The notes under the pieces: generated by a model
Databases searched by the model: none
What the model was told of the DNA's origin: nothing
The model's input: the letters and a program-made list of their open reading frames with translations, nothing else
Translations under genes and position numbers: made by a program
Part shown: positions 1 to 35,349 of the stretch, in pieces
Position numbering within the stretch: position 1 is the first letter of the stretch
How the letters are laid out: each line of letters starts with the position of its first letter
Assembly: GCA_029260055.1 (NCBI GenBank)
Contig: JAJDDX010000138.1
Coordinates: 1-37,458 of the forward strand
Length of the DNA stretch: 37,458 nucleotides
Direction of reading: 5' to 3'
Source of the DNA: Phycisphaerae bacterium
Lineage (GTDB): Bacteria > Planctomycetota > Phycisphaerae > UBA1845

Positions 1-2464
1 CGCCGTCGTCGCTCCCGAGTTCGAGCACGGCGGGCTGGCTCGCGGGCGAGAAGACGCGTGTCCGGAGATATGCCACCACGTCGGCACCCTCCATGACGGC
101 ACCGAGATCAATCCGCCAGACGGGCCCGCTACTGTCGTCCATGGGGTACGGCCGCCACTCGACCTCGCCGGCCTTCGGGTCTTCCGGTGGGAACGCCACG
201 CCGAACATCTGGCTTCCGGTCTTCTTGCCGTCCGTGTAGGGGCCGGACACGAGCCAATCGGTGATGTGCCCGTCGTAAGTGGCAATCTTATCCAGCACCG
301 CCAAAGCACGGTCGCGGATGTCGTCCGGCACCTCGGTGGCCAGGACCCTCGCCATGGCCGCCTCGCATCGCGGCCAATCCTTCCCGACGACCGCCTCCGC
401 CACGCCCACCATCGCCACCGCTGCCTCACCGCGCAGTGCCTCGTCATCGAGACGTGGGTCGAGCACCGCCAGTGCCGCGCCGTCCTTGACGCCGCCCACG
501 CCCGCGAGCAGGAGTTTGGTTTCTTCAGGTCGTCGGGCGACATCGATACCGGCCACGTGCATCTTCACCGTGGTCGCGGCATCGCGATCCGACGCGAGGC
601 CCAACACGCGGGCATAGCCACGGAGGGCAAGCACGTTGTGCGTCAACTCCGCCGAATCACGGGCCACCGCCAGCAAGTCATCGGCAGCTGAGGCATCGGG
701 CCACTCCGCGAGCGTACGCACGGCGGCTTCAACGGCCTCGGCTCGATCGTCGGCAAGTGCCGTGCGAACCTCGGCGAGAGCCTCATCGCCTCCGACTCGA
801 CCGAGGACCCGCAGCAAACAGCAGAACGTCGGCGTGGGCTGCCCGTCGGCCGCCGCGATGACCGTCGCCACAAGAGCCGGCACGTCCGCCGCGCGCTTGA
901 CCGTGGCGGCGATAGCGCTGACGAGTGCTTCTCTTTCATCTTCCGCATCCGCTTCCGTCAGCAGCGCGATCAGAGCAGGCGTCGAGTTGGGAGCCGCGAG
1001 CATCTCGAGCGCCCCGGCTGCGGCAATGCGAACGGCTTCGTCCGCGTCCCGGCTTGCCGCAAAGACGATGCCCGTCTCGCCGAGCGCAGCACGGCCCGCG
1101 AGAACCATCAGCAGGTCGATCTTCATGTGCGTGGGAGCCTTGCGGATCGCGGCTGCGACTGTCTTGGTAACCTGGCCGCCCGAAATCCCGCACAGCGCGT
1201 CGCGGGCGGCTTGACGCTGCTCTTCCACATCCGTGTCCAATGCAGTAAGGAGCGCGTCGACTGCTCTTGTCTGGCCTAGCTTCGACGCAGCGTCGATCGC
1301 AGCCAGTCGAACATCCGGGTCCTCATCCTTCAGTGCCGCGAGCGCAGCCGGCAGTGCCGATTGGTCACCGCGCACGCTCAACACACCGAGCATACCGGCA
1401 CGGCCGGCGGGCGTGGCAGTATCGAGCCGCGCGATGAGCGAGCGCGTGACGGCTCGGCCCGGAATGGTCGCTGCAAGCTTGGCGGCCGCCGCTCGCAGCT
1501 CCAGGCTGTCACTGTCCAACGCCGCTATCACGTCGTCGATCGCCCGATCGCCCAGGACAGTGGCCAGTGTCTCCAGCGCCGCACAGTGAACGTGGACCGC
1601 ATGGCCGTCCTCGTGTTCGGCGATCAGTTTGCGAATGATCGAGACGGCATCCGCCTGTTTCCTGTGCTCGTCCAGGCTGAGCGCAAACGTCAGCAATCGG
1701 TCGATGGCTTGCGATCGCTCGACGAGCGACGTAGCGCGCGTGGCTTCCACGAGTACCTGACGTGCGGCGGGATCACCGCAGCGAGCGAGCGCGTCCAGCG
1801 CCGCGCGGCGGAGCATCGGATCATCAGATTTCGCTGCCTGTAAGAAGGCGGGGACGGACTTCCTGTCGCCGAGCACACCGAGCGCGCTGACGATCGTGAC
1901 TCGATCCAAGCCCGTCGTCTTCGGCAGCGCCTCGCGAAACACGGTTGACACCCTCTGGACCCTCGCGCTGTGTGCCGCGGCGATGGTCAGCAGCGTACGT
2001 GCCGCGGGCGCACACAGGCCGTCAGCGGTAAGACAGCGTCCAAGCGACGCGGCCGCACGGTCCGTTCCCGGGAATTCGAGTTGCTCGATGAGAAAGACCT
2101 TGGCGGAAACCGTCAGCTCCGAGTCCAGCGCCTCGCCGACCACGTCAATGAACCGCCGCCGCACGGCGCGACCCTCCCGAGTCGCCGCGTGTATCGCGAG
2201 TGCGTGCAGTGCCATGCGAGGCTTGGTGTCATCACCCGTGCCGGGGTCGACCAGCATGTAGCACAGCGAGCGTATCGCGTCGGCGTCCAGACGAGCCAGA
2301 TCGCGCTTCAGTGCGGACGTGTCCAAGGCGGTCTGTGCCGGAATCCGTTCCAGTAGCGCAGGCACATCGGGACTCGGTCCACCCGCCAGCCCGAACGGTG
2401 TCCCGGTCGAGGCGCATCCGACGGCCAGAACAGCTATGCATGTCACGGCAAGTCCGGCAAGCAT
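1..2464 (-). CDS. HEAT-repeat lipoprotein 1 (C-terminus beyond window)
   Basis: An open reading frame of about 821 codons begins with ATG at 2464 and runs off the left edge. The N-terminus is a lipoprotein signal with lipobox LAVGC, so the mature protein is probably lipidated at Cys17 and anchored in a membrane. The body is alpha-helical HEAT-type repeats, for example DPDVRLAAIDAASKLG and DEAVRIAAAGALEMLA, which usually act as protein-binding scaffolds. Near the window edge the sequence passes into the segment WLVSGPYTDGKK, AFPPEDPKAGEVEW and LELGSDDG. This matches the C-terminal jelly-roll domain of the paralogue at 11384-13978 (FSGPYEQEDKSG, IGSDDGVKVWLNG). Like that paralogue it lies directly downstream of a Tat-exported Gfo/Idh gene, here with a gap of about 200 nt. 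Function is unknown; a scaffold or surface-binding role is inference. Confidence 0.85.
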   Translation of the reverse strand, partial: MLAGLAVTCIAVLAVGCASTGTPFGLAGGPSPDVPALLERIPAQTALDTSALKRDLARLDADAIRSLCYMLVDPGTGDDTKPRMALHALAIHAATREGRAVRRRFIDVVGEALDSELTVSAKVFLIEQLEFPGTDRAAASLGRCLTADGLCAPAARTLLTIAAAHSARVQRVSTVFREALPKTTGLDRVTIVSALGVLGDRKSVPAFLQAAKSDDPMLRRAALDALARCGDPAARQVLVEATRATSLVERSQAIDRLLTFALSLDEHRKQADAVSIIRKLIAEHEDGHAVHVHCAALETLATVLGDRAIDDVIAALDSDSLELRAAAAKLAATIPGRAVTRSLIARLDTATPAGRAGMLGVLSVRGDQSALPAALAALKDEDPDVRLAAIDAASKLGQTRAVDALLTALDTDVEEQRQAARDALCGISGGQVTKTVAAAIRKAPTHMKIDLLMVLAGRAALGETGIVFAASRDADEAVRIAAAGALEMLAAPNSTPALIALLTEADAEDEREALVSAIAATVKRAADVPALVATVIAAADGQPTPTFCCLLRVLGRVGGDEALAEVRTALADDRAEAVEAAVRTLAEWPDASAADDLLAVARDSAELTHNVLALRGYARVLGLASDRDAATTVKMHVAGIDVARRPEETKLLLAGVGGVKDGAALAVLDPRLDDEALRGEAAVAMVGVAEAVVGKDWPRCEAAMARVLATEVPDDIRDRALAVLDKIATYDGHITDWLVSGPYTDGKKTGSQMFGVAFPPEDPKAGEVEWRPYPMDDSSGPVWRIDLGAVMEGADVVAYLRTRVFSPASQPAVLELGSDDG

Positions 2465-2668: not shown

Positions 2669-3958
2669 CTACAGGTGCCACGGGGCACGCATCGGAAGAT
2701 CCACGAGACGGTTCGCCTCTTCGTCGCTGATGACCTCCTGCTTGTCGGGGTCCCAGCGGACAGCCCGCCCGGTTCGGATCGCTATGTTGGCCAGGTTGAC
2801 CAGCGAACATGACCGGTGCGTCACCTCGATGTTGCCGCCCGGCTGCTGCCGCGTGCGCACTGCCGTCTCGAAGTCGATCAACGGCTCGGGATCGGGCATC
2901 GAACGCAACTGGTCGAACAGACCCGGCGGATCGGTTCGGTAGTTGTCGTAGACCTTTCCCTTAGGCCCTTCCATGAACGGCAAGCCCTTCTCCTCGGGCG
3001 GGCCCCATTCGCCGCTTTTCAGGATGATCCGCGTATCGTCCGCGTACTTCAGCACGACCGTTCCCCACAACCCCACGGCATCCGGGTGCGGCGGCCAAGG
3101 GGCGTCGGCTGAGATTTCGACTGGGCCCGTATGATCCTTGCCGAGGAAGTACTGCACCGGGTCGAGGTAGTGCTGACCCATGTCGCTCAGTCCGCCACCG
3201 TCGTAGTCCCAATAGCCACGGAAGCTCTGGTGGACACGGTGCGGATGGTACGGCTTGACCGGTGCCGGGCCTTGCCACATATCGTAATCCAGCTCAGCCG
3301 GCACCGCCTCCGGAGTGAGGTTGTGCTTCCCGCTCCACATCGCGATCTTCCAGTTGAAACCCTGCTCGGGCGTGACGCGCACCGTCAGCGGCGTGCCGAG
3401 CAAGCCGCTCGACACGAGCTTGCGAAGCATCTTCGATGCACCGAAGCGGTAGTAGTTCCCGAATCGCCCGTGCGTGTTGACCTGATACACCCGGCCATGA
3501 CGCTTCACGGCGTCAACCAGCGCCTGACCTTCGCGGATGAACTTCGTGACCGGCTTCTCGCCAAAGATGTCCTTGCCGGTTTGAGCGGCTGCGATGGCGA
3601 TCAGCGCGTGCCAGTGCGGCGGCGTGGCGATGTGGACCGTGTCGATGTCATCCCGTTCCAGCACCTCGCGGAAGTCGGAATAGCCGGTACACCCTCGCCC
3701 CGCCTTGTCGATTGCGCTCTCGAGGTGTTTCCGGTCGACATCGCAGACCGCCAGCGTCACCGGCGGCTTACCCTCCTCGTTGGGAAGGACGTGCCAGTGC
3801 CCCATGCCACCGGTACCAATCACCGCCCGCGTGATGACCTCACTCGGCGGTGTGTAGCCGGGGCCGCCAAGCACGTGCCTGGGCACAATCGTGAAGGCGG
3901 CGGCGGCGGCAGCCGAACTGCGCACAAACTCGCGCCGCGTAATCCTTCGTTTCGCCAT
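2669..3958 (-). CDS. Tat-exported Gfo/Idh/MocA oxidoreductase A
   Basis: The protein has 429 residues. Start ATG 3958 is chosen because AGGAG lies 8 nt upstream; ATG 3964 would be only 2 nt from that site. A Tat signal TRREFVRS (residues 7-14) and a hydrophobic Ala-rich stretch indicate export folded with its cofactor. The Rossmann motif GTGGMG (about 48-53), DVDR, ATPPHWH and the family Lys motif GEKPV (about 133-137) are present. The C-terminus RAPWHL resembles Gfo/Idh C (RAPWRL). Family members are NAD(P)-dependent sugar or cyclitol oxidoreductases, and Tat-exported forms such as Zymomonas GFOR hold the cofactor tightly. The substrate is unknown. It precedes HEAT lipoprotein 1 and follows apbE with a 91-nt gap. 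Confidence 0.92.
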   Translation of the reverse strand: MAKRRITRREFVRSSAAAAAAFTIVPRHVLGGPGYTPPSEVITRAVIGTGGMGHWHVLPNEEGKPPVTLAVCDVDRKHLESAIDKAGRGCTGYSDFREVLERDDIDTVHIATPPHWHALIAIAAAQTGKDIFGEKPVTKFIREGQALVDAVKRHGRVYQVNTHGRFGNYYRFGASKMLRKLVSSGLLGTPLTVRVTPEQGFNWKIAMWSGKHNLTPEAVPAELDYDMWQGPAPVKPYHPHRVHQSFRGYWDYDGGGLSDMGQHYLDPVQYFLGKDHTGPVEISADAPWPPHPDAVGLWGTVVLKYADDTRIILKSGEWGPPEEKGLPFMEGPKGKVYDNYRTDPPGLFDQLRSMPDPEPLIDFETAVRTRQQPGGNIEVTHRSCSLVNLANIAIRTGRAVRWDPDKQEVISDEEANRLVDLPMRAPWHL

Positions 3959-4049
3959 ACTCATAACTCCTATGCCACGGGACAGGGACGACGTCCTCGG
4001 CTTTGCGAGCCGCATCAATCCCGTTCGTTCTACGTTGTCGCGCCCGCGC

Positions 4050-4973
4050 TCAAGACGAAGACGCCTCGGTCATCTCGAATCCCGCACCGACCCTTACTAT
4101 CTCGAAGTCGCCATCGGTCGGCAACGCCAGCGCCGCGGAAACTTCGCTCTGCGCTCCGCAATACGCCTCAACTTCCGAAAAGGACATCACCATGAAAGCC
4201 GTCGACAGCGCGTCCGCCAGAGCCGCCGACGGCGCCTTCGCCCACGCGCCGAGCGCCGACTCCGCCGGTTGCCCGGTTCGTGGATCGATAATGTGTGCTC
4301 CATGGTGGAAGCGGCCGGAGCCGCTCAGGGCCTCGTCGCAGAGCCCGACGGTTCCCACCGACCGCTCGACGCAACCGGGTTGCCGGAGCTGCACCAACCA
4401 TACGCCGCCGGCCGCGCCAGTGCCCAGCGACAGCGCGGTACTCTGTCCGGATTGCACAAGCGCGGATTCCACGCTCCACTCACGCAGCAACTCGGCAATC
4501 CGATCAACCGCGTACCCTTTTCCGATACCGCCGAGGTCGATAGACAAACCGTCAGCCTTACGGATCACGGTGTGGTCGTTCGTGTCGAGTTCGAGAAGCT
4601 GCATTCCGATCGGCCGATCGGGTCTGGCGTCACCGGCGGCTGTCACATCGAACGCGCCTCGAGTGCCGCCATGCACCGCAGCCGCCAACTCGAGACACTC
4701 GAACGTCTCCGGACCGACCTTGACCGCCTGACCGCACGCCGACTGATTGATCCTCGCCACATCACTGTGATCGACGAATCGGCTCAGCTCTTGTTCCATC
4801 CGATCGACTTCGTCGAAGGCGGCGCGGGCCGCATGCTCGGCGTAATCCGCTTCGTCACCGACGATAAGCAACTCGAAGGTACAAGCCATCGCCTCATGCG
4901 CGAAGCGATGACACGGCCGGCCGCCATCCTCACGTCGGCGGCGGTGTGGCGGGTTGCCGGGCTCGCCGATCAA
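4050..4973 (-). CDS. apbE: FAD:protein FMN transferase (ApbE family)
   Basis: The protein has 307 residues. ApbE enzymes move FMN from FAD onto a Ser/Thr in exported redox proteins, using Mg2+. Visible family motifs are HEAMACTFELL (26-36), FDVTAAGD (108-115), DLGGIGKGYAVDR (146-158), HIIDPRTGQP (227-236) and ADALSTAFMV (253-262), which includes the metal/FAD-binding Asp and Thr. The usual GG-S/D turn after the sixth strand reads SGQST. The N-terminus is Arg-rich and hydrophilic, with no signal peptide or lipobox, although most ApbE proteins are periplasmic or lipidated. ATG overlaps the stop of the upstream glycosyltransferase gene (ATGA), so translation is probably coupled. No neighbour carries a clear [ST]GA[ST] acceptor motif, so the substrate must be encoded elsewhere or be non-canonical. 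Confidence 0.92.
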   Translation of the reverse strand: MIGEPGNPPHRRRREDGGRPCHRFAHEAMACTFELLIVGDEADYAEHAARAAFDEVDRMEQELSRFVDHSDVARINQSACGQAVKVGPETFECLELAAAVHGGTRGAFDVTAAGDARPDRPIGMQLLELDTNDHTVIRKADGLSIDLGGIGKGYAVDRIAELLREWSVESALVQSGQSTALSLGTGAAGGVWLVQLRQPGCVERSVGTVGLCDEALSGSGRFHHGAHIIDPRTGQPAESALGAWAKAPSAALADALSTAFMVMSFSEVEAYCGAQSEVSAALALPTDGDFEIVRVGAGFEMTEASSS

Positions 4974-6550
4974 GGTCGCTCCTTTCCCGAGGTTGGCGAT
5001 GACCGAATGGTCGCCCGGCCGCGAAGGAACTCATCCCACAGCGTTCGTTCGACATAGAGCGTAAGAGCGACGTCGGGTCGCAGGCCGTAGAAGCTACTGA
5101 CATAGGGTTCCCGCAGCCTCTCGTCAAGTTCGGCCGACACATCGGTGGTGGCCACAAGCACGGGCGCGTCCAGCTCCTCCGGGAACTGCTCCCAGTAGCC
5201 GACGTGCTGCAAGCGCCGCAGGTACCACGGCAGAGGCCAGTAGTCTCCGCCGAGCACGTAGACCACCATGCGGTCGCGATCCTGATGCAATGCCGCGAGC
5301 TGCTCAATCCGCTCGGCGAGGCGCACCGCGTCGTTGACCGGATGGGCATATACATAAGGATTGCGCGGATCGGCACAGAACCTCGTGTTGCCGCGATGAG
5401 CCTGCCAGCCTAGCTGCACGCACGCCGCGATCAGCACGGCCGCGCCCACCACCTGAACCGATCGGAAACGCAAGATGCGAACGAGCGCCACGGCGCCGAC
5501 CCCCGCAAGCAGGATCATCCCATGAAGAAAGCCCAGCATGCACCACGGCGTCTTGTACGGAATCGTCGAGTAGATCAGGGCAAGGATGACCGTGTAGATC
5601 GTCACGAAGCGAAGGAGCGCTGTGTTCGTGTCGTTCGATCCGCCACCGCGCACCGCCACGACCGCCCCAATCAGAGCAAGCCCGAGGATCAGCGCTTCGG
5701 ACCACGAAGGGCCCGGCGCGTAGTGCGTGTAGAGCAGCAGGCGGAAGTAGTAGTACCAGGGATGATCGTGCAACCCGCTACCGCCGGCCCGCTCGAAATA
5801 CGTCGGGTAGGCACGCCACGCGTCGATCACACCTTCGGGATGAGTAAAGAAGGAAGAGAACAGCAGGCTCGATGCGAGTGCCGCTGCCACGACAGCCCCG
5901 ATCAAGACCGGCACGCGCAAGTAGGAACGGTAGGAGGTCGCCCCGCCTCCCTTGCGAATCCACCAAGCCGTCAACACGAGCGCGGCAAGAAGCGAACCGA
6001 AAGCGATAATGCTCGTCTCTTTCGTGGCGTGCATCAGGCCTGCGCCGACGCCGGCTGCGATCGCCCATACCGCCCGCTTCGTCACCACATAGCGCCACCC
6101 CGCCACGATCACCAGGAACGTGAAGAAGACCAGAAGCGTCTCTTGGATGTAGTACCGGCTGTAAAAGACCATCGCCGGAGATACCGCGATCAACGCAGCC
6201 GCGCAGCCCGTCTGCGCCTTGCCCCATCCGTCCACGAATAGCAGCAGCAGAAGGATGAGCCCCGCACCGAACAGCACCGGTAGAAGACGGAAGACGCGCG
6301 CGTCGGTTTGCCCGAGGTCGTCCGCACCGCTGATCCAAACCAGCGGCAACGTCAGGTAGTAGAGCGTCGGACCGTGGTACTCCTCGGGGTCGTAATGGTA
6401 CGCCCCCGACTGCCAGAGCCCGCCGAACTTGATCGCGTGAACGGCTTCATCGCCGTGCATCGGCCGCCGATCGAGCCCCGGCAGACGCATCGTAAGCGCC
6501 CCCGCCGTGGCAAGCAGAATCCAAACGGCAATGAGCCGATGTCGCTTCAT
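4970..6550 (-). CDS. Agl23/TIGR03663-like membrane glycosyltransferase
   Basis: The protein has 526 residues with many hydrophobic helices, for example LLPVLFGAGLILLLLLF and VPVLIGAVVAAALASSLL. The N-terminal loop after helix 1 carries HGDEAVHAIK (32-41) with the Asp-Glu pair typical of GT-C (GT39/ArnT-like) enzymes. It is followed by YHYDPEEYHGPTLYY (51-65), which I recognise as the signature of TIGR03663, annotated as 'flippase activity-associated Agl23'. GT-C proteins transfer sugar from a lipid-phosphate carrier on the outer face of the membrane. The specific donor and acceptor are unknown. The start overlaps the preceding gene and the stop overlaps apbE, both as ATGA, so it is part of the same transcript as the cytochromes. 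Glycosylation of an exported partner is a possible role, by inference. Confidence 0.85.
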   Translation of the reverse strand: MKRHRLIAVWILLATAGALTMRLPGLDRRPMHGDEAVHAIKFGGLWQSGAYHYDPEEYHGPTLYYLTLPLVWISGADDLGQTDARVFRLLPVLFGAGLILLLLLFVDGWGKAQTGCAAALIAVSPAMVFYSRYYIQETLLVFFTFLVIVAGWRYVVTKRAVWAIAAGVGAGLMHATKETSIIAFGSLLAALVLTAWWIRKGGGATSYRSYLRVPVLIGAVVAAALASSLLFSSFFTHPEGVIDAWRAYPTYFERAGGSGLHDHPWYYYFRLLLYTHYAPGPSWSEALILGLALIGAVVAVRGGGSNDTNTALLRFVTIYTVILALIYSTIPYKTPWCMLGFLHGMILLAGVGAVALVRILRFRSVQVVGAAVLIAACVQLGWQAHRGNTRFCADPRNPYVYAHPVNDAVRLAERIEQLAALHQDRDRMVVYVLGGDYWPLPWYLRRLQHVGYWEQFPEELDAPVLVATTDVSAELDERLREPYVSSFYGLRPDVALTLYVERTLWDEFLRGRATIRSSPTSGKERP

Positions 6551-7281
6551 TTCGCCTCGAGCCCGAAGACCTCCACCTCGGTGTAGTGGTTCTGGTCGTC
6601 GGAGGTGCTGCCGTTGGACAGCAGCCGCACGTAGCGCGCCTCGACGCCCTTGCCGTCGACCAGCTTACCCTCGTAGGTCTCCCAGTACTCGAGATCACTA
6701 CCGATGCCGAGGCCGGCCGAGTTGTCGTGATCGTTGTTGAACAGCGTCTTGACGCCCGTGATGAAGTCCTTGTCGGCGCTGACCTGCACGACCACATCGT
6801 GGTAGACGCGTGCGCTGGCGTGATAATGCCACAGCACGACGGCGTGGACCTTATACTTGCCCTTCAGGTCGATCATCACGTGCTGCAGGCCGGGGCCGAG
6901 CTCGGTGTAGCTACCCTCGTTGGCTTCTTTGTCGCCATCGGTAATGAGCGCGATCGTACCGATGATCGGCTCCTCATCGCTGCTGGAGACGCGTTTGCCC
7001 TGTGCCACGTTCGCACTGCCCTTGGGCGCCAGGAACGGGCTGCGCGGCTTCTTGCGCGGCTTCTCGAGTCGCGTGCCCGGTGGTACGTGCTTGGGTGTGC
7101 CCTTGAAGGCCGGCCTCGGTAACTTCAGCTTGATCGGCGTGAGGTTCGGGTCTTTCTTCGCCGCAGCCTTGTCGTCGGCGCCGTCCCCGGCAAGGGCGAC
7201 GGTCGAAGCCGTGGCCGCCGCAACCGTCAAGGCCGCGGTAAGAAGAAGTAATCGGACGCGACACGTTGAATCATGCTTCAT
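6547..7281 (-). CDS. Exported discoidin-like (F5/8 type C-like) protein
   Basis: The protein has 244 residues from ATG 7281; an in-frame GTG at 7293 would add four residues. Both starts overlap the end of the cytochrome b gene. A signal peptide is clear (LLLLTAALTVAAATAS). A Lys/Pro-rich linker of about 60 residues follows, including KPRKKPRSPFLAPKG. The C-terminal domain, about 90-244, looks like a galactose-binding jelly roll: KRVSSSDEEP, ITDGDKEANEG, IDLKGKYKVHAVVLWHYH, RYVRLLSNGST and EVEVFGLEAK. Domains of this kind bind sugars or surfaces. Its position between cytochrome b and the glycosyltransferase, with overlapping ends, suggests a structural or substrate-binding part of the same exported system. 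No catalytic motif is seen. Confidence 0.78.
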   Translation of the reverse strand: MKHDSTCRVRLLLLTAALTVAAATASTVALAGDGADDKAAAKKDPNLTPIKLKLPRPAFKGTPKHVPPGTRLEKPRKKPRSPFLAPKGSANVAQGKRVSSSDEEPIIGTIALITDGDKEANEGSYTELGPGLQHVMIDLKGKYKVHAVVLWHYHASARVYHDVVVQVSADKDFITGVKTLFNNDHDNSAGLGIGSDLEYWETYEGKLVDGKGVEARYVRLLSNGSTSDDQNHYTEVEVFGLEAK

Positions 7282-7966
7282 GGTCTTGCTCACTCTCTGC
7301 TTTCAAACTCGATTGCCAGAGCCCGTGGTATCGCTTTGCCCATCCGGTGCTTACCTGCCCGGATATCATCGCCCGCCACGTGCCCGGCTTCGCTAACATT
7401 GTGACATAGGTATGCAGGATCACCGCGATCAGCAAGCCGAGCCCGCTGTAGCGATGAACCGCGTGTAAGATCGAAAGGCCGCGCTGTGAGAACAACGGTG
7501 TCGTCTCGAGCATCATCGAGGCCAGCGATGCAAATCCGAACACAAGCACCAGCCAGAAGAACAGCTTCTGACCGGTGTCGAAACGACCGGCGGCCGGTCG
7601 TCTTCCGCCACCGAAGTGCCCGCCGCCGCGACGGAGCCACTCGCCGTCGGGTCGCGCAAACCGGCAAGGATCAGCCAGGCTCACCGCCGTCACGCTCAAA
7701 CCGATCGCAAAGGGCAGCGAAGCCGCGACATGCGCCATCAACCACCATCCTTCGAGTCGGCCGAGGCACAGCGCACCCGCGAAACCCGTGATCGCCAAAA
7801 CCACGAAGCAGAGCGTCGTGATCGCATGGACGAAGCGCTGCCAGCCGCCCCACCGGCGCACGGTCTTCTCACCGGCGTCCGGGCCACGCGATCGGAAAAT
7901 CGCGAAGTGCCCTACGACCAGCACGACCGTCGCGACAAGACTGATTGTGGCTACCGTGGCGAACAT
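7271..7966 (-). CDS. Cytochrome b, FdnI-like (formate dehydrogenase gamma type)
   Basis: The protein has 231 residues from ATG 7966. An in-frame TTG at 8008 overlaps the cytochrome c gene and would add 14 residues, so the start is uncertain. About five hydrophobic helices are visible, including TVATISLVATVVLVVGHFAI and VHAITTLCFVVLAITGFAG. His47, His79, His171 and His185 lie in or near helices. The HAVHRYSG / ILHTY pair keeps the 14-residue His spacing known for FdnI heme ligands, and the tail WRAMISGQVSTGWAKRYHGLW resembles the FdnI quinone-site end. Such subunits carry electrons between a periplasmic c-type or iron-sulfur partner and membrane quinone. Here the partner is most likely the seven-heme cytochrome encoded just upstream. 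Confidence 0.85.
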   Translation of the reverse strand: MFATVATISLVATVVLVVGHFAIFRSRGPDAGEKTVRRWGGWQRFVHAITTLCFVVLAITGFAGALCLGRLEGWWLMAHVAASLPFAIGLSVTAVSLADPCRFARPDGEWLRRGGGHFGGGRRPAAGRFDTGQKLFFWLVLVFGFASLASMMLETTPLFSQRGLSILHAVHRYSGLGLLIAVILHTYVTMLAKPGTWRAMISGQVSTGWAKRYHGLWQSSLKAESEQDHEA

Positions 7967-7997
7967 CTCATCTCGCAAGCAGATCGGCCGCTCGGCC

Positions 7998-9884
7998 TCA
8001 TCTGCCAAACTTCAGCAACGCGGCTGTCCCGCGTAGCCCGTAGACCAGCAGCACCCAGCCGAGCACAGCGGCACAGGCGAAACCGATCACCTTGAACGCC
8101 ATGCGAAACACGAACGAGGTTGCCCACGCCTGCAACATCGCCGAACTTTGCCCGCGCAGTTCGTACATCAGCTCAACCGGTCGTTGCCCCTGGGCGGCTG
8201 TGACCGGCGTGATTCGGCCAAAAGAAAACGGCGCATCAGCGGCATGGCAATCCGTACACCCACCCGACCCGAGCGACTGGGCGGCTGGACGAACGTCGTG
8301 GGCCACCGGCCACGTATAGGCGCCTGCTACCGGGTGTTCGAAAGTCTCCAAGGTACCCGACGCATCACGACGATGCGCTCGGCCGTCACTTACGTACACG
8401 AACACCGCCTGTGGATCGCCGCTCTCTGCAAGCGCGGCGAGCACGCTGGCCACTTGCTCCGGGTCGAGCGCCTCGCCGCCATGCGTCTTTGCTGAGCGCT
8501 CCGGCAAGGCCGTTGCGACGGCCTCGTTTGCAGCTTCGATCGCAATCGGTTTGATCTCGTCGCCCGCCATGCGTCCCCAGAACGCAGGCCAGACCATGTA
8601 ATGCGGGGCGAGCTTGCCATCCGAACCCGGCACGAAGACAGGCCCGAGGATCTCCGGCGGCGTAACGTCTGTACGTTCCTTGCTCGCCACGCCAAGCCCG
8701 TGCGCTCGGGAAGTCTGGAACCGGCGCACCTGCCCGGTTGGCCACGGTCCGGAGTGACAGGCCGTGCAGACAAGCTTGTCTAGATGAACGGGCGGCAAGC
8801 CACTGTGCAGCGGCTTGGGTGCGCCGAACCGACCACCCAACGCCGCCGGCACCGCATCCGCACCCTCGTCGCCCAAGTGACATCCACGACAGGTCAAGCT
8901 CGGCCCGGTCGGCGCCGCGTGAGCCGTGTTCTCGCCCTCGTAGCCACGCACCATCGCGTGGTCGAGACCGTGGCGATGGCAATCGACGCACCCGAGCCCC
9001 GCGGACAGATGCACATCCTGATCTACCTGCCACCCCTCCGGGCTATCGGGACCGACCTCGCGGCTCGTATGGCAGAAGTAGCAGCGCGCATTGGACGGCT
9101 TCCCCGCCACGTCAAACAGCACCCTGTCATCAGCATCGAAACGCGTCTTGTCGTACCGCATCGAGGGACCGGCTCGCTCCGGATGGTCGGGATCGGGCGG
9201 CATGAACGGGTCCCAGTCGTCCGGCGCCTTGCGTGCCTCGCCTCGCACCGAAGCGAGACCCATCGCGACGGTGGGGATCCACTTGAGGTTCTGCCTCTCG
9301 ATCTGCCGGTTCGCCTCGCTCGGATCATGCCGAACGCCGCCGGAATGGCACAGCATGCAGTCGATCCCGAGCGTGCCGGAAATGCGCCAGCGAGCCGCCT
9401 CCGGCATCTTTGAAAAGACCGACGGCTCAGGCTCGCCGATCCCGCCGCCGGGCAGATGGCGCCCGAAGGCAAGCACGAACCGCCAGGCGGTCATGCCGAG
9501 GACCTCAGGTGCGTACGTGCCTGGCCGGCCCCGGGCCGAGATCGGCAGTTGTGTACCTGTCAGCGGATCGGACAGCATCCAAGGCTCACCGCGCCGGCCG
9601 GCATCGACGGACTTCTCACCCGCACTGAAGTGCCACCCGGAACCGACTATGCCATAACCATGACATTTTCCGCACGTGGCTCGCGGGGAGTAGGGAGCCG
9701 GAGGCATGTCCTCGGGGCTGATCGCGGTGCCGTCTTCGTCGTAGAGCGTGATCCGGTGAACGTAGGGTGAGCGGCTATCGGATCGAAGCGGCCGTGAAGC
9801 CTCGTCCGGTGGCGCGCCGAGCGCCGGCGGCACAAAAGCCACCGCCATCATCATCATCAACACGCCAACCGCTTTGCTCTTCAC
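7998..9884 (-). CDS. Seven-heme membrane-anchored cytochrome c
   Basis: The protein has 628 residues. The start is GTG 9884, supported by AAAGGG 6 nt upstream. A signal peptide (VGVLMMMMAVAFVPPALGA) leads to the periplasm. Seven CxxCH heme-attachment motifs begin at residues 71, 176, 268, 299, 332, 373 and 543. They include CMLCH, CYFCH, CVDCH, CRGCH, CTACH and CTDCH. One C-terminal transmembrane helix (about 592-616) anchors it. Long heme-free segments (75-176 and 377-543) suggest extra domains, possibly catalytic or partner-binding. The gene just downstream is the cytochrome b, so the two probably form a quinone-linked electron-transfer pair. The direction of electron flow and the terminal substrate are unknown. 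I do not recognise a named family such as NrfA, OTR or NapC. Confidence 0.9.
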   Translation of the reverse strand: MKSKAVGVLMMMMAVAFVPPALGAPPDEASRPLRSDSRSPYVHRITLYDEDGTAISPEDMPPAPYSPRATCGKCHGYGIVGSGWHFSAGEKSVDAGRRGEPWMLSDPLTGTQLPISARGRPGTYAPEVLGMTAWRFVLAFGRHLPGGGIGEPEPSVFSKMPEAARWRISGTLGIDCMLCHSGGVRHDPSEANRQIERQNLKWIPTVAMGLASVRGEARKAPDDWDPFMPPDPDHPERAGPSMRYDKTRFDADDRVLFDVAGKPSNARCYFCHTSREVGPDSPEGWQVDQDVHLSAGLGCVDCHRHGLDHAMVRGYEGENTAHAAPTGPSLTCRGCHLGDEGADAVPAALGGRFGAPKPLHSGLPPVHLDKLVCTACHSGPWPTGQVRRFQTSRAHGLGVASKERTDVTPPEILGPVFVPGSDGKLAPHYMVWPAFWGRMAGDEIKPIAIEAANEAVATALPERSAKTHGGEALDPEQVASVLAALAESGDPQAVFVYVSDGRAHRRDASGTLETFEHPVAGAYTWPVAHDVRPAAQSLGSGGCTDCHAADAPFSFGRITPVTAAQGQRPVELMYELRGQSSAMLQAWATSFVFRMAFKVIGFACAAVLGWVLLVYGLRGTAALLKFGR

Positions 9885-9902
9885 GCGTCGCCCTTTACAG
9901 CG

Positions 9903-11243
9903 TCAAACCGTGAAATCCTCCGGCTTGAAGTCGGCCGGCAGGCGCTGTGCCACCGCCTCGTTGGCCGCGAACACCGAAACCGCCGTCTCATACGCCACCT
10001 CCGGCGGACATGACAGCGGCGTCCCGTTGCGGATGGCGTTGAAGAAGTTCTCGAGGTGCAATTGGTGAACGGGCTTCTGGCTCTCGGCCAGCATCTTCTC
10101 GGCCTCGGGCGTTCGGCTACCGTCCGGGGCGAGCGTCTCGCCGATCTTCAGTTCGATCGCGTCGCGTCCCATCGTCTCGATGGTTTTGGCTTCGTCCTCC
10201 CAGTCGCGCCGTTTCGCGTCGAGTTCGCGGAAAACGAACCCCTTGCGCGGATCCTCCGAGATCACCATCGATCCTTGATCACCCATGAACGTTTCGTAGT
10301 ATCCGCCGTGGCTTGTCGTGTTGAGCACCTGGTAGAAGCCGCGCACGGTCGAGCCGTCCACCGGATACTCGTAGATCGCCATGACATTGTCGTACCATTC
10401 GCGATCCTTGTAGTAGTCCCGGCCGCCGCTGGCCAGCACGGACTTCGGCTTCGCATCGAGGATCCAGTTGAACACGTCGATCTGGTGCGAGCCAAGGTCA
10501 GCCATCGGGCCGCCGGAAAACTTGTGGTACCAGCGCCAGTTGCGGAACTGGTCCATCGAGCTGTAACCGAGCTTCTCCAGCGTCCCCGTCTCGATCACCT
10601 CATCCTTGGGCCAACCGAGATCGTATCGCTTTGCCCGGTTCCACTGGGCGTAGGCATGCGTGATCTGCCCGAGCACCTTGTCCTTGCGGATCATCTTCAG
10701 CGCGTGCCAGTAGCGTGGATTGCTGCGCCGCTGATGGCCGATCTGGAGTAGCTTGCCCGTCTCACGTGCGGTCACGACCATCTGCTTGCACGCGTCGAGG
10801 TTGTGCGCCATCTCCTTCTCACAGTAGACATGTTTGCCGGCCTTGAGACAGGCCACCGTGTGCTCCGCGTGAACCCAATCGGGCGTAGCCACGATCACTG
10901 CGTCGAGGTCCTTCTCCTGCGCCAACATCTCTCGGTGGTCGCTGTAGACCGTCACCGGCTGATCGTACTTCTTGAGTATGTTCGCGGCGTAGCGCTGGTG
11001 ATAAGGCCAGACATCGCAAATCGCGACGAAGCGAACGCCGGGGATCTTCAAACACTTGGTGAGCAGGTTGCGCCCCTGGCTTCCCGGACCGATCATCGCG
11101 ATGTGCAAATCGTCGGCGGGCGGCTTCGTATCCTGCGCCCACACCGGCGCGGTAAGGAGCGCTCCGGCACCGGCAGCCGCCGCCTGCATGAATCCGCGGC
11201 GACTGCAATCCGCCCCCGCTATTTGGTCGTTCGTGTGGCTCAT
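9903..11243 (-). CDS. Tat-exported Gfo/Idh/MocA oxidoreductase B
   Basis: The protein has 446 residues. The N-terminus has a Tat motif CSRRGFMQ followed by an Ala/Gly hydrophobic stretch and a likely cleavage after APVWAQ. The nucleotide-binding loop is GPGSQG. The family Lys motif reads CEKEM rather than the usual EKP, so Lys is kept but Pro is Glu. The following IGHQRRSNPRYWHAL and AYAQWNRA belong, from memory, to a subgroup common in planctomycetes. It ends 18 nt before the seven-heme cytochrome gene and is probably in the same operon. That makes it the best candidate for the dehydrogenase delivering electrons to, or acting in series with, the cytochromes. The substrate is not predictable from sequence. 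Confidence 0.92.
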   Translation of the reverse strand: MSHTNDQIAGADCSRRGFMQAAAAGAGALLTAPVWAQDTKPPADDLHIAMIGPGSQGRNLLTKCLKIPGVRFVAICDVWPYHQRYAANILKKYDQPVTVYSDHREMLAQEKDLDAVIVATPDWVHAEHTVACLKAGKHVYCEKEMAHNLDACKQMVVTARETGKLLQIGHQRRSNPRYWHALKMIRKDKVLGQITHAYAQWNRAKRYDLGWPKDEVIETGTLEKLGYSSMDQFRNWRWYHKFSGGPMADLGSHQIDVFNWILDAKPKSVLASGGRDYYKDREWYDNVMAIYEYPVDGSTVRGFYQVLNTTSHGGYYETFMGDQGSMVISEDPRKGFVFRELDAKRRDWEDEAKTIETMGRDAIELKIGETLAPDGSRTPEAEKMLAESQKPVHQLHLENFFNAIRNGTPLSCPPEVAYETAVSVFAANEAVAQRLPADFKPEDFTV

Positions 11244-11383: not shown

Positions 11384-13978
11384 CTAGTTGGCTTCGAACT
11401 TGAGCCCGTCGATGCTCTCGCCGTCCGGTGCCCTGACGCCGCAGCAAACACCGCAAGCCCCACCGCCCTGCGTGATCTTCAATAGCAGGTCGTTCCATCC
11501 CTGAGCGAGCGTCACGCTCACGGTGTCGTCACCGCACTTCAGTCCCCGCGCGCCGGCCTTGCTGTGCACGAACTCGCCGTTGAGCCACACTTTGACACCG
11601 TCGTCGCTACCGATAAGAAGCTGCGCCTCTTGCTCCGCCTCTGCCCACACCTTGGTCTTGACGTATGCGCAGCAATTCGACGTAGCCGCCGACTTGGTCA
11701 GATCGAACGCCCAGGGGTTCTTGGTGTTGGTCACCCGTAGCGGCGCCCAGACGACGTCCTGCGCCTCGGGCTCCTCCGGCGGGAACGCCACATCGAACAA
11801 GTCCGCTCCGGACTTGTCTTCTTGTTCGTACGGCCCACTGAAGAGCCACTGCACACAATAGCCACGATGCTCCTTGATGAACTCGGCGGCCGCGTCCGCC
11901 AACTCGCCGAGCGGGCCCTCCGGATCGGTGGCCCGCACCTGCTCCACCGCTGATAGAGCCTCGGCGACGTGCTCGGCGCTCGTACTCTTCGCTACTTCGA
12001 GCGCGGCGGCTCCCGCCTCCGCCTTCAACTCGTCATCGCCGAGATGGGATAGCGCATTACTCAGCGCGTCCGGATGCATCACATCACCCAGCGCCGCCAG
12101 TACCTGCTTCTTCGTCTCGACCTGCTGAGCTAGCGTCATCGCGGATGTAAGCAGATCCAACGTATCGCCCGGCTCGCGGTCGCTCGCCAACCGCACAAGC
12201 CGCACGTAACCGCGCAGCGCGAGCACGCGGTGAATCTCGCTGTCGCTGCCCTTGACGATGCGGAGCAGGTCCTCCAGGACCTCCGCATCACTCCAATCCG
12301 ACAGCACGCGAACGCACGCATCGCGGATGGCTTCATCCCGGTGGTCCACCGTCGCACGCATGATCGCCAGCGCCCGCTCACCTCCGAGCCGCCCGAGCAC
12401 GCGGATGAGCGACACCTCCGCCACGACGGGCGCACCGACGAATCCCTCGACGACGGGTTTCACCCGCCGCTCGTCATCGTCGATACGCTGGCACAACGCC
12501 ACGATCGCATCCTCAGCCGCCTCGCGCGATTCCTCACCATCCATGGTCACGAGCAAGTGAACCATGGCCGGCAGATCGTCCTCGCCACCACAGCCACCGA
12601 GGGCTTCCATCGCGGCTACACGAACCGCCTCGTCCTTGCCTCGTGCAGCCAACCGCAAGACCGGTATGGCGCCGGCCGAGCCGCGTGCCTGCAGCGCCTT
12701 GATCAGCTCCACCTGAACCGGCGCGGCGGCTGAGCCGACCGATGACAGCACCCGCTCGTCCACGTCCGCGCCGCGCAGGCCGGCGAGACTCTCGCGAGCC
12801 GCCGCTGCCTCATCGCCCCTGCTGATCGAAGCCGCTTCGGCGAGTAACATGACCAGCGACGCATCGCCCAAACGTCCCAATGCGCGCAGCGCCGCGATCC
12901 GAACTTCAATCGCCGAGTCGGTCGTCGCCGTCACCACCGGCTCCGCCGCAGCCGCATCGCCGCGAGCACCCAGTGAATCAAGCAGCAGCACGCGAGCCTC
13001 GGGCGCAGCGCTTTCGAGTTCCGCCGCGAGCTTGAGCGTCACGCGCGAGCCGGGAATGCCCTCCGTCAGCCGAGCCGCGATCCGGCGCATCTCCGGATCA
13101 CCATCCGAACCGATGACCTCCAACAGCAGCGGCAAGGCGCTCGCTCGCTCCGCTTCGGCGATGCCGCGCAGCGCAGCCACACGCCCGATGCCGGCCGTGC
13201 TCGATTCGTAAATACCATGAAAGATCCCAGCCGCGCGCCGGCGCTGCCCGTTTGCCACCAGTCGATCAGCAATGCGTAGGAGCGCATCCGTCGCGGGCTC
13301 GTTAAGAGGCGAACCCTCGACCTGTCGACACGCGGAAAGCCGGTCCGTCGCCACCGATCCGCCGAGATCGCCCAGAGCCGCAACCGCAGCCCGCGCCAAG
13401 GCCGTGTCCTTCGAATCACTAAACCCGACGATCAGATCGACACTCGCGGCATCATCCCGTGCAGCCAGCGCGTTGATCAGCGCAATCTGCCAGGCCGAGT
13501 CCGTGGCCTCCCCAAGTTCATCACGCAACGCACGAGCGGCGGCGCGAGTCGGGTTGTTCAGTAGAGCCCGCCGGGCAAGCTCGCGAATCTGGGGGTCTTC
13601 GTCATCAAACAGCGCGGTCAGTCCCGTAACCACTTCCTCGCGGCCGAGCGGTTCGATCTTGCGCAGCAACCAGACGCGCGCCGGCTTGGCCGTCTCCGGG
13701 CCCACCTTGGCGATGATCGCCCGACACAGCGCCCGCCGACGCGTCTCGTTGCCGCGACCACCCACACGATGGCAGATCGTCTCGAACGCGCGTTGTGTAT
13801 CTTCCCGCTCGATGAGCGTCTCGTGCCCCATGCCGGGAAGCAACGCGTCGATCACATCGGCGTAGGTCACCACAAGCGGCGGCAAGCGGCTGGGTACGCC
13901 GACTCGCCCGGGTCCGGTACATGCCGTACCCGCACACATGGCCATGGTCAAAACCGCAAGCATATTGAAGCGCTTCAT
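11384..13978 (-). CDS. HEAT-repeat lipoprotein 2 with C-terminal jelly-roll domain
   Basis: The protein has 864 residues. Start ATG 13978 is supported by GAAGGAG 9 nt upstream. The signal peptide MLAVLTMAMCAGTAC ends in a lipobox (AGTAC), so it is probably lipid-anchored. Most of the chain is HEAT-type helical repeats, for example DEAVRVAAMEALGGCG and DPQIRELARRALLNNP. The last 150 residues or so form a domain with VQWLFSGPYEQED, AFPPEEPEAQDVVWAPL, IGSDDGVKVWLNGEFVH and LAQGWNDLLLKITQGGG. I recognise this as the PA14/jelly-roll-like tail found in many planctomycete exported proteins. That domain is Cys-rich (SNCCAY, GLKCGDD, GACGVCCG), which suggests disulfides or metal binding. It starts 20 nt after the stop of Gfo/Idh C. 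It is a paralogue of the protein at 1-2464. Confidence 0.9.
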   Translation of the reverse strand: MKRFNMLAVLTMAMCAGTACTGPGRVGVPSRLPPLVVTYADVIDALLPGMGHETLIEREDTQRAFETICHRVGGRGNETRRRALCRAIIAKVGPETAKPARVWLLRKIEPLGREEVVTGLTALFDDEDPQIRELARRALLNNPTRAAARALRDELGEATDSAWQIALINALAARDDAASVDLIVGFSDSKDTALARAAVAALGDLGGSVATDRLSACRQVEGSPLNEPATDALLRIADRLVANGQRRRAAGIFHGIYESSTAGIGRVAALRGIAEAERASALPLLLEVIGSDGDPEMRRIAARLTEGIPGSRVTLKLAAELESAAPEARVLLLDSLGARGDAAAAEPVVTATTDSAIEVRIAALRALGRLGDASLVMLLAEAASISRGDEAAAARESLAGLRGADVDERVLSSVGSAAAPVQVELIKALQARGSAGAIPVLRLAARGKDEAVRVAAMEALGGCGGEDDLPAMVHLLVTMDGEESREAAEDAIVALCQRIDDDERRVKPVVEGFVGAPVVAEVSLIRVLGRLGGERALAIMRATVDHRDEAIRDACVRVLSDWSDAEVLEDLLRIVKGSDSEIHRVLALRGYVRLVRLASDREPGDTLDLLTSAMTLAQQVETKKQVLAALGDVMHPDALSNALSHLGDDELKAEAGAAALEVAKSTSAEHVAEALSAVEQVRATDPEGPLGELADAAAEFIKEHRGYCVQWLFSGPYEQEDKSGADLFDVAFPPEEPEAQDVVWAPLRVTNTKNPWAFDLTKSAATSNCCAYVKTKVWAEAEQEAQLLIGSDDGVKVWLNGEFVHSKAGARGLKCGDDTVSVTLAQGWNDLLLKITQGGGACGVCCGVRAPDGESIDGLKFEAN

Positions 13979-13998
13979 CGCGAACTGCTCCTTCGGAA

Positions 13999-15279
13999 TT
14001 ACAGGCGCCACGGCGCGCGTTTGGGTCGGTCCAACCATCGGCTCGCTTCCGCATCACCGATGATCTCCCCTGCCACGGCGTCCCACTTGAACGGGCGCCC
14101 CAGCCAATAGGCGATATTGCCGAGATGGCACACGGTGACGGAACTGCAGCCAACCGCGACATCGCAAATAGGACGCTGACGAGTTCGAATGCAGTTGATC
14201 CAGTCCGCCCGGTGCCCGGGGCTCTCGTACAGACGCAAATCATTCGGGCCCAGCGGCTCGAGCCCGATCTCGTCGGGCCACGTCTTCAAGTAGCCGCGGT
14301 TGACCTCGATCTTGCCCTCCGTACCAGTGAACAACACGCCGTTCGCGCCGCCGTGATACATAGTCACGCCATTGGCATACTTGTAGGTCAGTGTGTCGTA
14401 GTCCCTGCCGTCGGGCGGAATGACCTCAGCCGGCCCGCTGCCGTCCATCCCCATGCCCCACTGGGCAATATCGAAATGATGGGCGCCCCAGTCGGTCATC
14501 ATGCCGCCGGAGTAGTCCCGAATGCGCCGCCAACCGCCGCTGTAGCTGCCGCTCGCACGCTCCGAGTTGTAAGGCTGCCACGGCGCGGGGCCTAACCAAC
14601 GTTCCCAGTCGAACCCTTCGGGGATCGGCTCTTCGGCAAGATACTTCTCCCGCGACGGTTCACCCACGCCGACGTGGACGGTCTGCAGCTTGCCGATTCG
14701 ACCGTTGCGCACCAATTCGCACGCCTTGCGGAAGTTGCCGGCAGACCGCTGCTGGCTTCCCGTCTGGAAGACCCGGCCATACCGCCGAGCTGCGCGAACC
14801 ATCGCCCGCGCCTCACAGACGGTTAACGAGAGCGGTTTCTCGCAGTAGATGTCCTTGCCGGCTCGGGCGGCTGCGATCGCGACCGTGGCGTGCCAATGAT
14901 CCGGCACTGCGATGAGCACCGCGTCGATGTCGTCACGAGCCAGCAGCCGCTCATATTCGTTGTATTGGTCGCAACCCTTGTAGGTGCCCGCCTCGCGCTG
15001 ATCGGCGTATTGCTCTTCGACGCGGTTAAGCGCCTTGACGCGCTTCTCGGTGTTGACATCGCAGACGGCGACGACTTGCAGGTCCGCATCGCCCAGGAAC
15101 CCTGAAAGGTGCCCGCCGCCCATGTTGCCGATACCGATCAAGCCCACGGCGAGCCGTTCACTCGGCGCCGTGAAACCGGATCGCCCGAGGGCGGAGGCCG
15201 GCACGATGTACGGAGCGGCGACCGCAGCCGCAGCCCCTCGTAAGAACTTCCTTCGCGTGAGCTTCGTTCGTGTGGGCAT
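13999..15279 (-). CDS. Tat-exported Gfo/Idh/MocA oxidoreductase C
   Basis: The protein has 426 residues. Start ATG 15279 is preceded by GAGGGGA at about 5 nt spacing. The Tat motif is TRRKFLRGAA (8-17). GIGNMG (about 49-54) binds the nucleotide, CDVNTEKR follows, VPDHWHA is present, and YCEKPLS carries the conserved Lys-Pro. TGSQQRSAGNFRKAC and TDWGAHHFDIAQWGMG are typical of planctomycete exported members of the family. The C-terminal RAPWRL is shared with oxidoreductase A, and both genes are followed by a HEAT lipoprotein gene, which points to duplication of a two-gene unit. It is the first gene of the 15-kb minus-strand series and is divergent from xylB. Confidence 0.92.
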   Translation of the reverse strand: MPTRTKLTRRKFLRGAAAAVAAPYIVPASALGRSGFTAPSERLAVGLIGIGNMGGGHLSGFLGDADLQVVAVCDVNTEKRVKALNRVEEQYADQREAGTYKGCDQYNEYERLLARDDIDAVLIAVPDHWHATVAIAAARAGKDIYCEKPLSLTVCEARAMVRAARRYGRVFQTGSQQRSAGNFRKACELVRNGRIGKLQTVHVGVGEPSREKYLAEEPIPEGFDWERWLGPAPWQPYNSERASGSYSGGWRRIRDYSGGMMTDWGAHHFDIAQWGMGMDGSGPAEVIPPDGRDYDTLTYKYANGVTMYHGGANGVLFTGTEGKIEVNRGYLKTWPDEIGLEPLGPNDLRLYESPGHRADWINCIRTRQRPICDVAVGCSSVTVCHLGNIAYWLGRPFKWDAVAGEIIGDAEASRWLDRPKRAPWRL

Positions 15280-15435
15280 GTCGATCCCCTCGCGGTGAAT
15301 CACGATCCGTCCAATCTCCACATCATGCCATAGCTTCGTGATCATCGCCAGCGATCCGGGCCGATTGCGACCAGGCGGCCGGGCCGTTAATCTGCGCACG
15401 ACGCGGTAAGCATGGTACTTGGACTACTACCCGCC

Positions 15436-35316: not shown

Positions 35317-35349
35317 CCTCCGTGTCCTCTGTGATCTCTGTGGTTCAAA
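35317..35349. repeat. 'ACCACAGAGATCACAGAGGACAC'-type dispersed repeat
   Basis: Read on the minus strand, TTTGAACCACAGAGATCACA continues as GAGGACACGGAGG. This begins at the stop codon of Gfo/Idh D and runs into the gap. From memory, near-identical CACAGAG/GGACAC strings occur between genes across many unrelated bacteria. Their nature is unclear. Confidence 0.55.

Follow-up and report, generated by a model that had tools for sequence, protein, structure and literature searches.

Periplasmic 3-oxidation of glycosides is known from LacABC, which is encoded beside a PF06439 protein (PMC9007349), and from BT2158 (PMC11300592), and the processing of 3-keto sugars involves PF06439 proteins and isomerase-like enzymes (PMC9007349; PMC10628242); the sources cited here were accessible in part, and our statements refer to that part. 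Here, we analyzed a 37,458-nt contig of a Phycisphaerae bacterium (JAJDDX010000138.1, hereafter the window), in which a Tat-exported Gfo/Idh oxidoreductase, GfoB, forms a six-gene block with a heptaheme cytochrome c, a cytochrome b, a discoidin-like protein, an Agl23-like GT-C glycosyltransferase, and an ApbE-type FAD:protein FMN transferase. The block resembles a known kind of system, the respiration-linked periplasmic sugar dehydrogenases. Exported Gfo/Idh dehydrogenases are numerous in planctomycetes, and their electron disposal is, to our knowledge, an open question. With this block, a specific membrane pathway, conserved in several phyla, can be put forward for these electrons, which brings the question within reach of tests on four to six genes. 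If the pathway is real, an unexplained step of an alternative route of sugar breakdown becomes testable as well.

Enzymes of the LacABC type combine an FAD/GMC catalytic subunit with a cytochrome, and Pfam gave no match to such a subunit in the nine window proteins scanned. Like the system proposed here, LacABC of Caulobacter and other bacteria is a gene set for extracytoplasmic, membrane-bound glycoside 3-oxidation; it is placed beside PF06439 (DUF1080) proteins, which near our block occur in 47 of 80 relatives' loci but neither in nine distant-variant loci nor in the window. No Gfo/Idh, heptaheme cytochrome, ApbE, or GT-C is described for it in the accessible text (PMC9007349). BT2158 of Bacteroides (PMC11300592; NF058561) is likewise an exported enzyme, acting in disaccharide use, and NF058561 weakly matches GfoB and two further Gfo/Idh proteins of the window (GfoA, 149.3 bits; GfoC, 156.2 bits); all of them differ from it in lying far under the equivalog cut-off of 750 bits, and the accessible text mentions no cytochrome partner for BT2158. 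The Agrobacterium GlycDH/OGE/HYD/Gfo route would share 3-keto-glycoside chemistry, isomerase-like enzymes, and a Gfo enzyme with our system, but there a flavoenzyme carries out the oxidation and the proposed place of the Gfo enzyme is at the reductive end (PMC10628242). The PSCyt cytochromes c of Verrucomicrobia and planctomycetes have a proposed role in carbohydrate use, some of them with F5/8-type or carbohydrate-binding domains (PMC5615132); the block, in contrast, has seven heme motifs in one anchored protein and a separate Gfo/Idh, and Pfam listed no PSCyt domain in its proteins. A paper on Planctomycetota and KSB1 bins contains none of the terms "heptaheme," "ApbE," and "Gfo" in its accessible text (PMC10732223), and a search of titles and abstract openings, mainly in the open-access literature, found no published description of this cluster.

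The block consists of six minus-strand open reading frames (ORFs) between positions 11243 and 4050, in the order GfoB (9903–11243), cytochrome c (7998–9884), cytochrome b (7271–7966), discoidin-like protein (6547–7293), Agl23-like GT-C enzyme (4970–6550), and ApbE (4050–4973). An earlier reading of this DNA, referred to here as the original prediction, had given the same set and order, and the ORF coordinates and family matches agree with it, the discoidin-like protein falling below the Pfam cut-offs. It had also proposed gaps of at most 18 nt and four junctions that overlap or use ATGA. The gap between GfoB and cytochrome c is indeed 18 nt, the cytochrome b and discoidin-like genes overlap by 11 or 23 nt depending on the start, and the next two junctions are ATGA (discoidin-like to Agl23) and TTGA (Agl23 to ApbE), with AAAGGAG preceding the TTG start of ApbE. 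The cytochrome b ORF is open from 8008, and its likely start is the ATG at 7966 because several homologues begin with "MF...," which matches this ATG and not the TTG at 8008. With this start, a 31-nt gap follows cytochrome c, and three junctions overlap instead of four. The promoter-like sites (0) and terminator-like sites (6 versus 7.3 expected) of the window were uninformative.

To follow the block in other genomes, one genome per species was scanned, and of the 282 relatives found, the best 80 were kept as loci, a choice that favors close relatives. The loci L032–L059 and L060–L139 lie partly on the same contigs, 108 loci not being equivalent to 108 genomes, and the profiles were partly built from sequences in the counted loci. 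Within the best 80, many of which are cut by contig ends, matches were obtained for cytochrome b in 73 loci, GfoB in 68 (at least 200 bits), the discoidin-like protein in 55, Agl23 in 48, and ApbE in 46. In 60 of the 70 loci with at least 1.5 kb of upstream sequence, an orthologous Tat-type Gfo/Idh (GfoB) was present upstream of the cytochrome at a distance of at most 600 nt, compared with a chance expectation of about 0.002 Gfo/Idh genes per given 2 kb on one strand; the window's genome has 14 Gfo/Idh matches above cut-off in 7.63 Mb. All six families were present in 32 of the 49 loci with full flanks; 31 of these follow the gene order of the window, and in the remaining one the last three genes are inverted. 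The complete set was also found in five non-planctomycete loci (L077, L085, L097, L102, and L131), which belong to Calditrichota, KSB1, and Bacteroidota bins. The neighborhood that the original prediction expected to be conserved is thus kept across phyla, and because of this conservation, we regard a functional unit as well supported.

Glucose-fructose oxidoreductase keeps its nicotinamide bound and works in a closed redox cycle, and turnover of exported Gfo/Idh enzymes is possible without an external acceptor. GfoB might work in the same way, the block then being a loose carbohydrate regulon in which the genes for cytochromes, glycosylation, and flavinylation are unrelated. The parts can indeed lie apart, as in genome G120, which has the discoidin-like and Agl23 genes on contig C90 and the GfoB and cytochrome c genes on contig C61. 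We nevertheless consider this explanation very unlikely in view of the shared gene order and of the fusions of cytochrome c with cytochrome b and of GT-C with ApbE described below.

The cytochrome was also searched for in 294 genomes of the phylum, giving matches in 45 genomes at E ≤ 1e-3 and in 17 at E ≤ 1e-70. The discoidin-like protein (E ≤ 1.5e-30) was present in 16 of these 17 genomes and in 3 of the 277 others (Fisher 1.7e-22), and Agl23 (E ≤ 1e-70) in 15 of 17 and 2 of 277 (Fisher 3.2e-21); these Fisher values are descriptive because the genomes are related to one another and the 1e-70 cut was chosen after the hits had been seen. Among 85 cytochromes compared in a quick tree, one supported group holds ten rows, which come from Calditrichota, Bacteroidota, Ignavibacteriota, Deferribacterota, KSB1, and an unnamed bacterium; three Omnitrophota rows fall in a second such group, and both non-planctomycete groups branch among planctomycete rows. 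This pattern suggests that the block spread as a unit; it does not prove transfer, since the sequences come from metagenome bins and the tree was built by a quick method.

With a confidence of about even chances, we propose that the block encodes a membrane-bound outlet for the electrons released when glycosides are oxidized outside the cytoplasm, leading through GfoB and the cytochromes c and b to quinone and matured by the GT-C and ApbE enzymes. GfoB would be exported through the Tat pathway with its nicotinamide cofactor already bound and would oxidize a glycoside, probably attacking C3 and yielding a 3-keto sugar. Isomerases and 3-keto-glycoside hydrolases, encoded near the block or at other sites, would take over this product. 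The electrons would flow from GfoB to the anchored heptaheme cytochrome c and then through cytochrome b to quinone. Given such an outlet, GfoB could turn over without a second sugar as the oxidant. The discoidin-like protein would anchor the assembly to a glycan or protein surface, the Agl23-like enzyme would glycosylate the cytochrome or its partner, and ApbE would attach FMN to some component, where the flavin would turn the two-electron hydride step into single-electron heme transfer. We infer the substrate, the C3 position, the electron direction, the flavin acceptor, and the partners of the discoidin-like protein and of both modifying enzymes; electron flow to quinone is plausible. The computed results in favor of this proposal are the conserved unit and its phyletic profile, the seven heme sites with their seven additional conserved histidines, the c–b and GT-C–ApbE fusions, and the enrichment of genes for 3-keto-glycoside use around the main form.

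GfoB, a protein of 446 aa, belongs to the Gfo/Idh/MocA family by its PF01408 Rossmann domain (75.9 bits versus a cut-off of 24) and carries a TAT signal (TIGR01409, 22.8 versus 16.7 bits) with the Tat motif RRGF; an RRx[FL] motif is present in 62 of the 65 GfoB rows aligned. Gly52, Gly54, and Gly57 of the NAD fold, Asp77, Lys143 (within CEKE), Asp249, and His253 are each kept in at least 93% of these rows, and we take Lys143, Asp249, and His253 to be the catalytic residues of the family. GfoB also forms a separate score class, with 65 ORFs at 550 bits or more and the other 117 below 400, 113 of those below 200. GfoB is our proposed extracytoplasmic glycoside dehydrogenase.

The cytochrome c (628 aa) has, by translation and hydropathy, a signal peptide and a C-terminal membrane anchor, the hydrophobic segment being centered on residue 609; here and below, membrane segments and signal peptides were assigned with a simple hydropathy script or by eye rather than with a trained predictor. 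Its translation contains seven CXXCH motifs and matches PF14522 with 39.0 bits (cut-off 24.8). Across 18 cytochromes with identities down to 31%, all seven CXXCH motifs and exactly seven other histidines are invariant, which is the pattern expected of seven bis-histidine hemes; an eighth histidine, His395, is also kept in a larger alignment. Seven motifs were counted in 76 of 80 related ORFs and six in the other four (L078, L079, L083, and L084), of which L079, L083, and L084 come from Omnitrophota bins. Between heme motifs 6 and 7 lies a conserved, fairly confidently modeled domain of about 135 residues (398–532; positions 8289–8693, minus strand), for which AlphaFold gave a mean predicted local distance difference test score (pLDDT) of 82.6; the heme-free model of the whole protein, built with 18 sequences, reached 76.1. 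Foldseek found no match at E ≤ 0.001 for either model, and the best VIA Z scores, 2.6 for the whole protein and 4.5 for residues 398–532, were below the level of kinship. The VIA matches were mostly proteasome-like, and the fold comparisons rule out no family; solved multiheme cytochromes (NrfA and others) gave local heme-motif matches alone, the best with E 7.1e-5 over 46 profile positions.

The original prediction had called the cytochrome b FdnI-like. At the Pfam level, this description holds, with 57.5 bits to PF01292 (prokaryotic cytochrome b561; gathering cut-off 30.1), whereas the FdnI model TIGR01583 scores 75.4 bits, under its equivalog cut-off of 115.85. In nine of the 108 loci, the cytochromes c and b are fused into one protein, which argues for a c–b complex. 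The exported discoidin-like protein (F5/8 type C), for its part, marks the main form of this system by its phyletic profile, its domain remaining under the Pfam gathering cut-offs (PF22633, 26.5 versus 27.8 bits; PF00754, 22.2 versus 28.2 bits).

The gene surroundings connect the block to sugar chemistry. Clustering of neighboring ORFs returned mainly antisense shadows of the conserved genes, and the neighbors named here are limited to families confirmed with Pfam or counted by profile. PF06439-like (3-keto-glycoside hydrolase) genes were found in 47 of the 80 relatives' loci, genes of a TIM-barrel isomerase type in 33, and GT2 genes in 29, none of them occurring in 20 control regions, and 187 Gfo/Idh ORF matches (GfoB counted) in the 80 loci compare with one in the controls; the controls were drawn from nine planctomycete genomes that bear the cluster, two of which supplied 13 of the 20 regions. 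In the 16 loci L032–L047, the PF06439-like, TIM-barrel, and GT2 counts were 8, 5, and 3. Examples checked with Pfam include PF06439 hydrolases, xylose-isomerase-like TIM barrels, MFS or NCS1-like permeases, and GT2 enzymes, and L037 has a PF06439 domain and a xylose-isomerase-like TIM barrel in a single protein. Pfam finds two TIM-barrel genes in the window (17012–18139 and 36391–37230), and the window's genome has PF06439 genes elsewhere, among them one for a two-domain PF06439 protein placed just before another Gfo/Idh gene on contig C180. The extracytoplasmic sugar or glycan redox system of the original prediction is thus supported by the PF06439-like, TIM-barrel, and further Gfo/Idh neighbors of the main form, but not in a distant variant, described below.

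Several results weigh against a respiratory glycoside oxidation of this kind. GfoB reaches only 99.7 bits with the glycoside 3-dehydrogenase equivalog NF058561, far below its cut-off. FdnI has four conserved histidine ligands for two b hemes, and in the cytochrome b family only two histidines are kept throughout, His93 in 73 of 74 rows and His185 in 73 of 73 (numbered from 8008), with His34 in 37 of 58 and His199 in 43 of 73. One to five families are missing from 17 of the 49 full-flank loci, and neither the discoidin-like protein nor Agl23 gave a match in 12 genomes of family f21 with cytochrome E values between 1e-50 and 1e-70. The window itself has no PF06439-like gene (and no TIM-barrel or GT2 gene at the profile threshold), and all three types are absent from the nine distant-variant loci L048–L056, the absence of the first two counting against the proposal.

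The same gene data would fit electron flow in the reverse direction, from quinol through cytochrome b and the heptaheme cytochrome to the exported Gfo/Idh, which would then serve as an extracytoplasmic reductase of a 3-keto sugar or some other carbonyl. This reductive explanation is the main rival, and a precedent that counts against the oxidative one comes from Agrobacterium, in which the Gfo enzyme of a 3-keto-glycoside operon is proposed, from preliminary evidence, to turn 3-keto-glucose back into glucose by reduction (PMC10628242). Sugar reduction with respiratory electrons costs energy, however, and several other Gfo/Idh genes nearby could perform a reductive step, and we consider reverse flow unlikely.

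A further possibility concerns the cytochromes alone. Modules of multiheme cytochrome c and cytochrome b commonly oxidize quinol, and Cbc-type complexes form a quinol-oxidizing branch to extracellular or periplasmic acceptors; the cytochromes c and b might be such a branch, linked to the Gfo/Idh through shared carbon sources only. It would agree with this, and count against our proposal, that the cytochrome has no GfoB directly upstream in 10 of the 70 loci: eight have none by the threshold used (L063 has a fragment), and in two it lies 1.7–1.9 kb away. The ORF starts read in seven of these ten loci showed no common replacement for GfoB. We hold a separate quinol-oxidizing branch to be distinctly unlikely given the tight linkage of the cytochrome to one Gfo/Idh type across phyla and given that the variant cytochrome also has a Tat-type Gfo/Idh in its vicinity.

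Within the electron outlet that we favor, the two modifying enzymes deserve separate treatment. The Agl23-like enzyme scores 205.1 bits with TIGR03663 (subfamily cut-off 126.25), and its crude hydropathy and charge profile shows 14 partly overlapping peaks, which we read as about 11 membrane segments with the C-terminal tail outside. ApbE matches PF02424 with 153.1 bits (cut-off 25.6) and keeps Lys152, His227, Asp254, and Thr258, presumably its catalytic and metal-binding residues, in at least 93% of 47 rows; it is probably an active flavin transferase. Agl23 and ApbE are fused into a single protein in five of the 108 loci (L036:3535–6072, minus strand; L094; L129; L130; and L134), four of them within one cytochrome clade, and Pfam identifies PMT/PMT_2 and ApbE domains in the L036 and L130 fusions. 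With the Agl23 tail placed outside, the ApbE part of a fusion would be outside as well. According to the original prediction, all products except ApbE are exported or membrane-bound. Unfused ApbEs indeed show no clear signal peptide by eye, but with ApbE attached to the GT-C C terminus in the fusions, and with lipoprotein-like ApbEs (by eye) in the distant variant, the statement does not hold in general.

That a glycosyltransferase and a flavin transferase are joined in one protein suggests that they mature a common target. GT-C and ApbE might form a dedicated maturation module for a heptaheme cytochrome or dehydrogenase complex that is glycosylated and carries FMN at an attachment site of a new kind, and Tat-exported Gfo/Idh enzymes with bound nicotinamide might in this way respire directly on glycosides in several phyla; we regard this extended version of our proposal as rather unlikely. 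ApbE also lies beside membrane heme proteins in described extracytosolic electron transfer systems (PMC11334425; PMC8238504), for which the ApbE flavinylation motif has been published (PMC11334425); the accessible main text of PMC8238504 contains none of the terms "Gfo," "multiheme," and "glycosyltransferase." Our locus differs from these systems in that neither the acceptor families sought in the genome (below) nor the motif in the window's proteins gave a match. The original prediction's claim that the block has its own flavinylation enzyme calls for qualification: [S/T]GA[S/T] occurs in none of the nine window proteins tested, which speaks against a flavinylated component in the block. The pattern D..[ST].A[TS] is also absent from these nine proteins, and a looser pattern has one match, in a HEAT-repeat protein. 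Among relatives, [S/T]GA[S/T] is sporadic (cytochrome c, 2 of 81 rows; discoidin-like protein, 1 of 56; Agl23, 2 of 47; GfoB, 0 of 65; cytochrome b, 0 of 74), and six plus-strand ORFs of the 80 loci match a loose flavinylation pattern, none common to the loci.

The acceptor families sought in whole genomes were FMN_bind, NqrB/RnfD, and DUF2271, and not Flavodoxin_4 or FMN_red. The block's ApbE is the sole ApbE in G000, G102, and G053, three genomes at least 98% complete that include the window's own, and none of the three families gave a match there. G118 (89% complete) likewise has one ApbE and none of these families, and G071 lacks them but has two ApbEs. The block thereby exposes an ApbE retained in genomes without the three substrate families sought, and in some genomes, the target of ApbE must lie outside these families, or there is none. 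Against a special role of this ApbE, FMN_bind is present in 18 and NqrB/RnfD in 12 of the 26 genomes examined, where ApbE may serve those proteins, and G132, which has both FMN_bind and NqrB/RnfD, contains the fused ApbE and no other.

The distant variant comprises family f21 and G118, whose heptaheme cytochrome is 29–37% identical and has an FGE-sulfatase-like gene next to it (confirmed with Pfam in L053 only). Near it is a divergent pair encoding ApbE and a Tat-type Gfo/Idh that differs in type from GfoB (confirmed with Pfam in L049), and the f21 cytochromes that were read are followed by small ORFs with no Pfam match that look membrane-like by eye. This arrangement is seen in L045, L048–L053, L055, and L056 (e.g., L049:5247–11015 and L053:8963–15005). 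The trio of cytochrome, ApbE, and Gfo/Idh persists in the variant although the ApbE and Gfo/Idh types differ, and this counts in favor of the proposed electron outlet.

The remaining genes of the window include two more Gfo/Idh enzymes near the block. GfoA (2669–4018, minus strand, Pfam) has a Tat-like start and lies downstream of ApbE, as does a similar gene with 48% identity in L033; it is possibly part of the same unit. GfoC (13999–15399, minus strand, Pfam) lies upstream and has a Tat signal (TIGR01409, 17.4 versus 16.7 bits). A further Gfo/Idh gene, without a visible export signal, overlaps a TIM-barrel isomerase gene by one base (35345–37230, minus strand), and divergent from the Gfo/Idh group, an FGGY sugar kinase gene overlaps a xylose-isomerase-like TIM-barrel gene (15450–18139, plus strand). 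In relatives, GT2 genes lie near the block in L078, 28 further loci of the 80, and L038, mostly on the opposite strand; the GT2 enzyme may be the source of the lipid-linked sugar that the Agl23-like enzyme would use. Upstream of GfoB, a HEAT-repeat protein (11384–14038, minus strand) has similar counterparts in the same region of L034, L036, L037, L039, L040, and L041. It is 34% identical to a second HEAT-repeat protein of the window (2–1903, minus strand), one of the two being cut by the contig end, and the HEAT protein of L097 carries PF06439 (3-keto-disaccharide hydrolase) domains.

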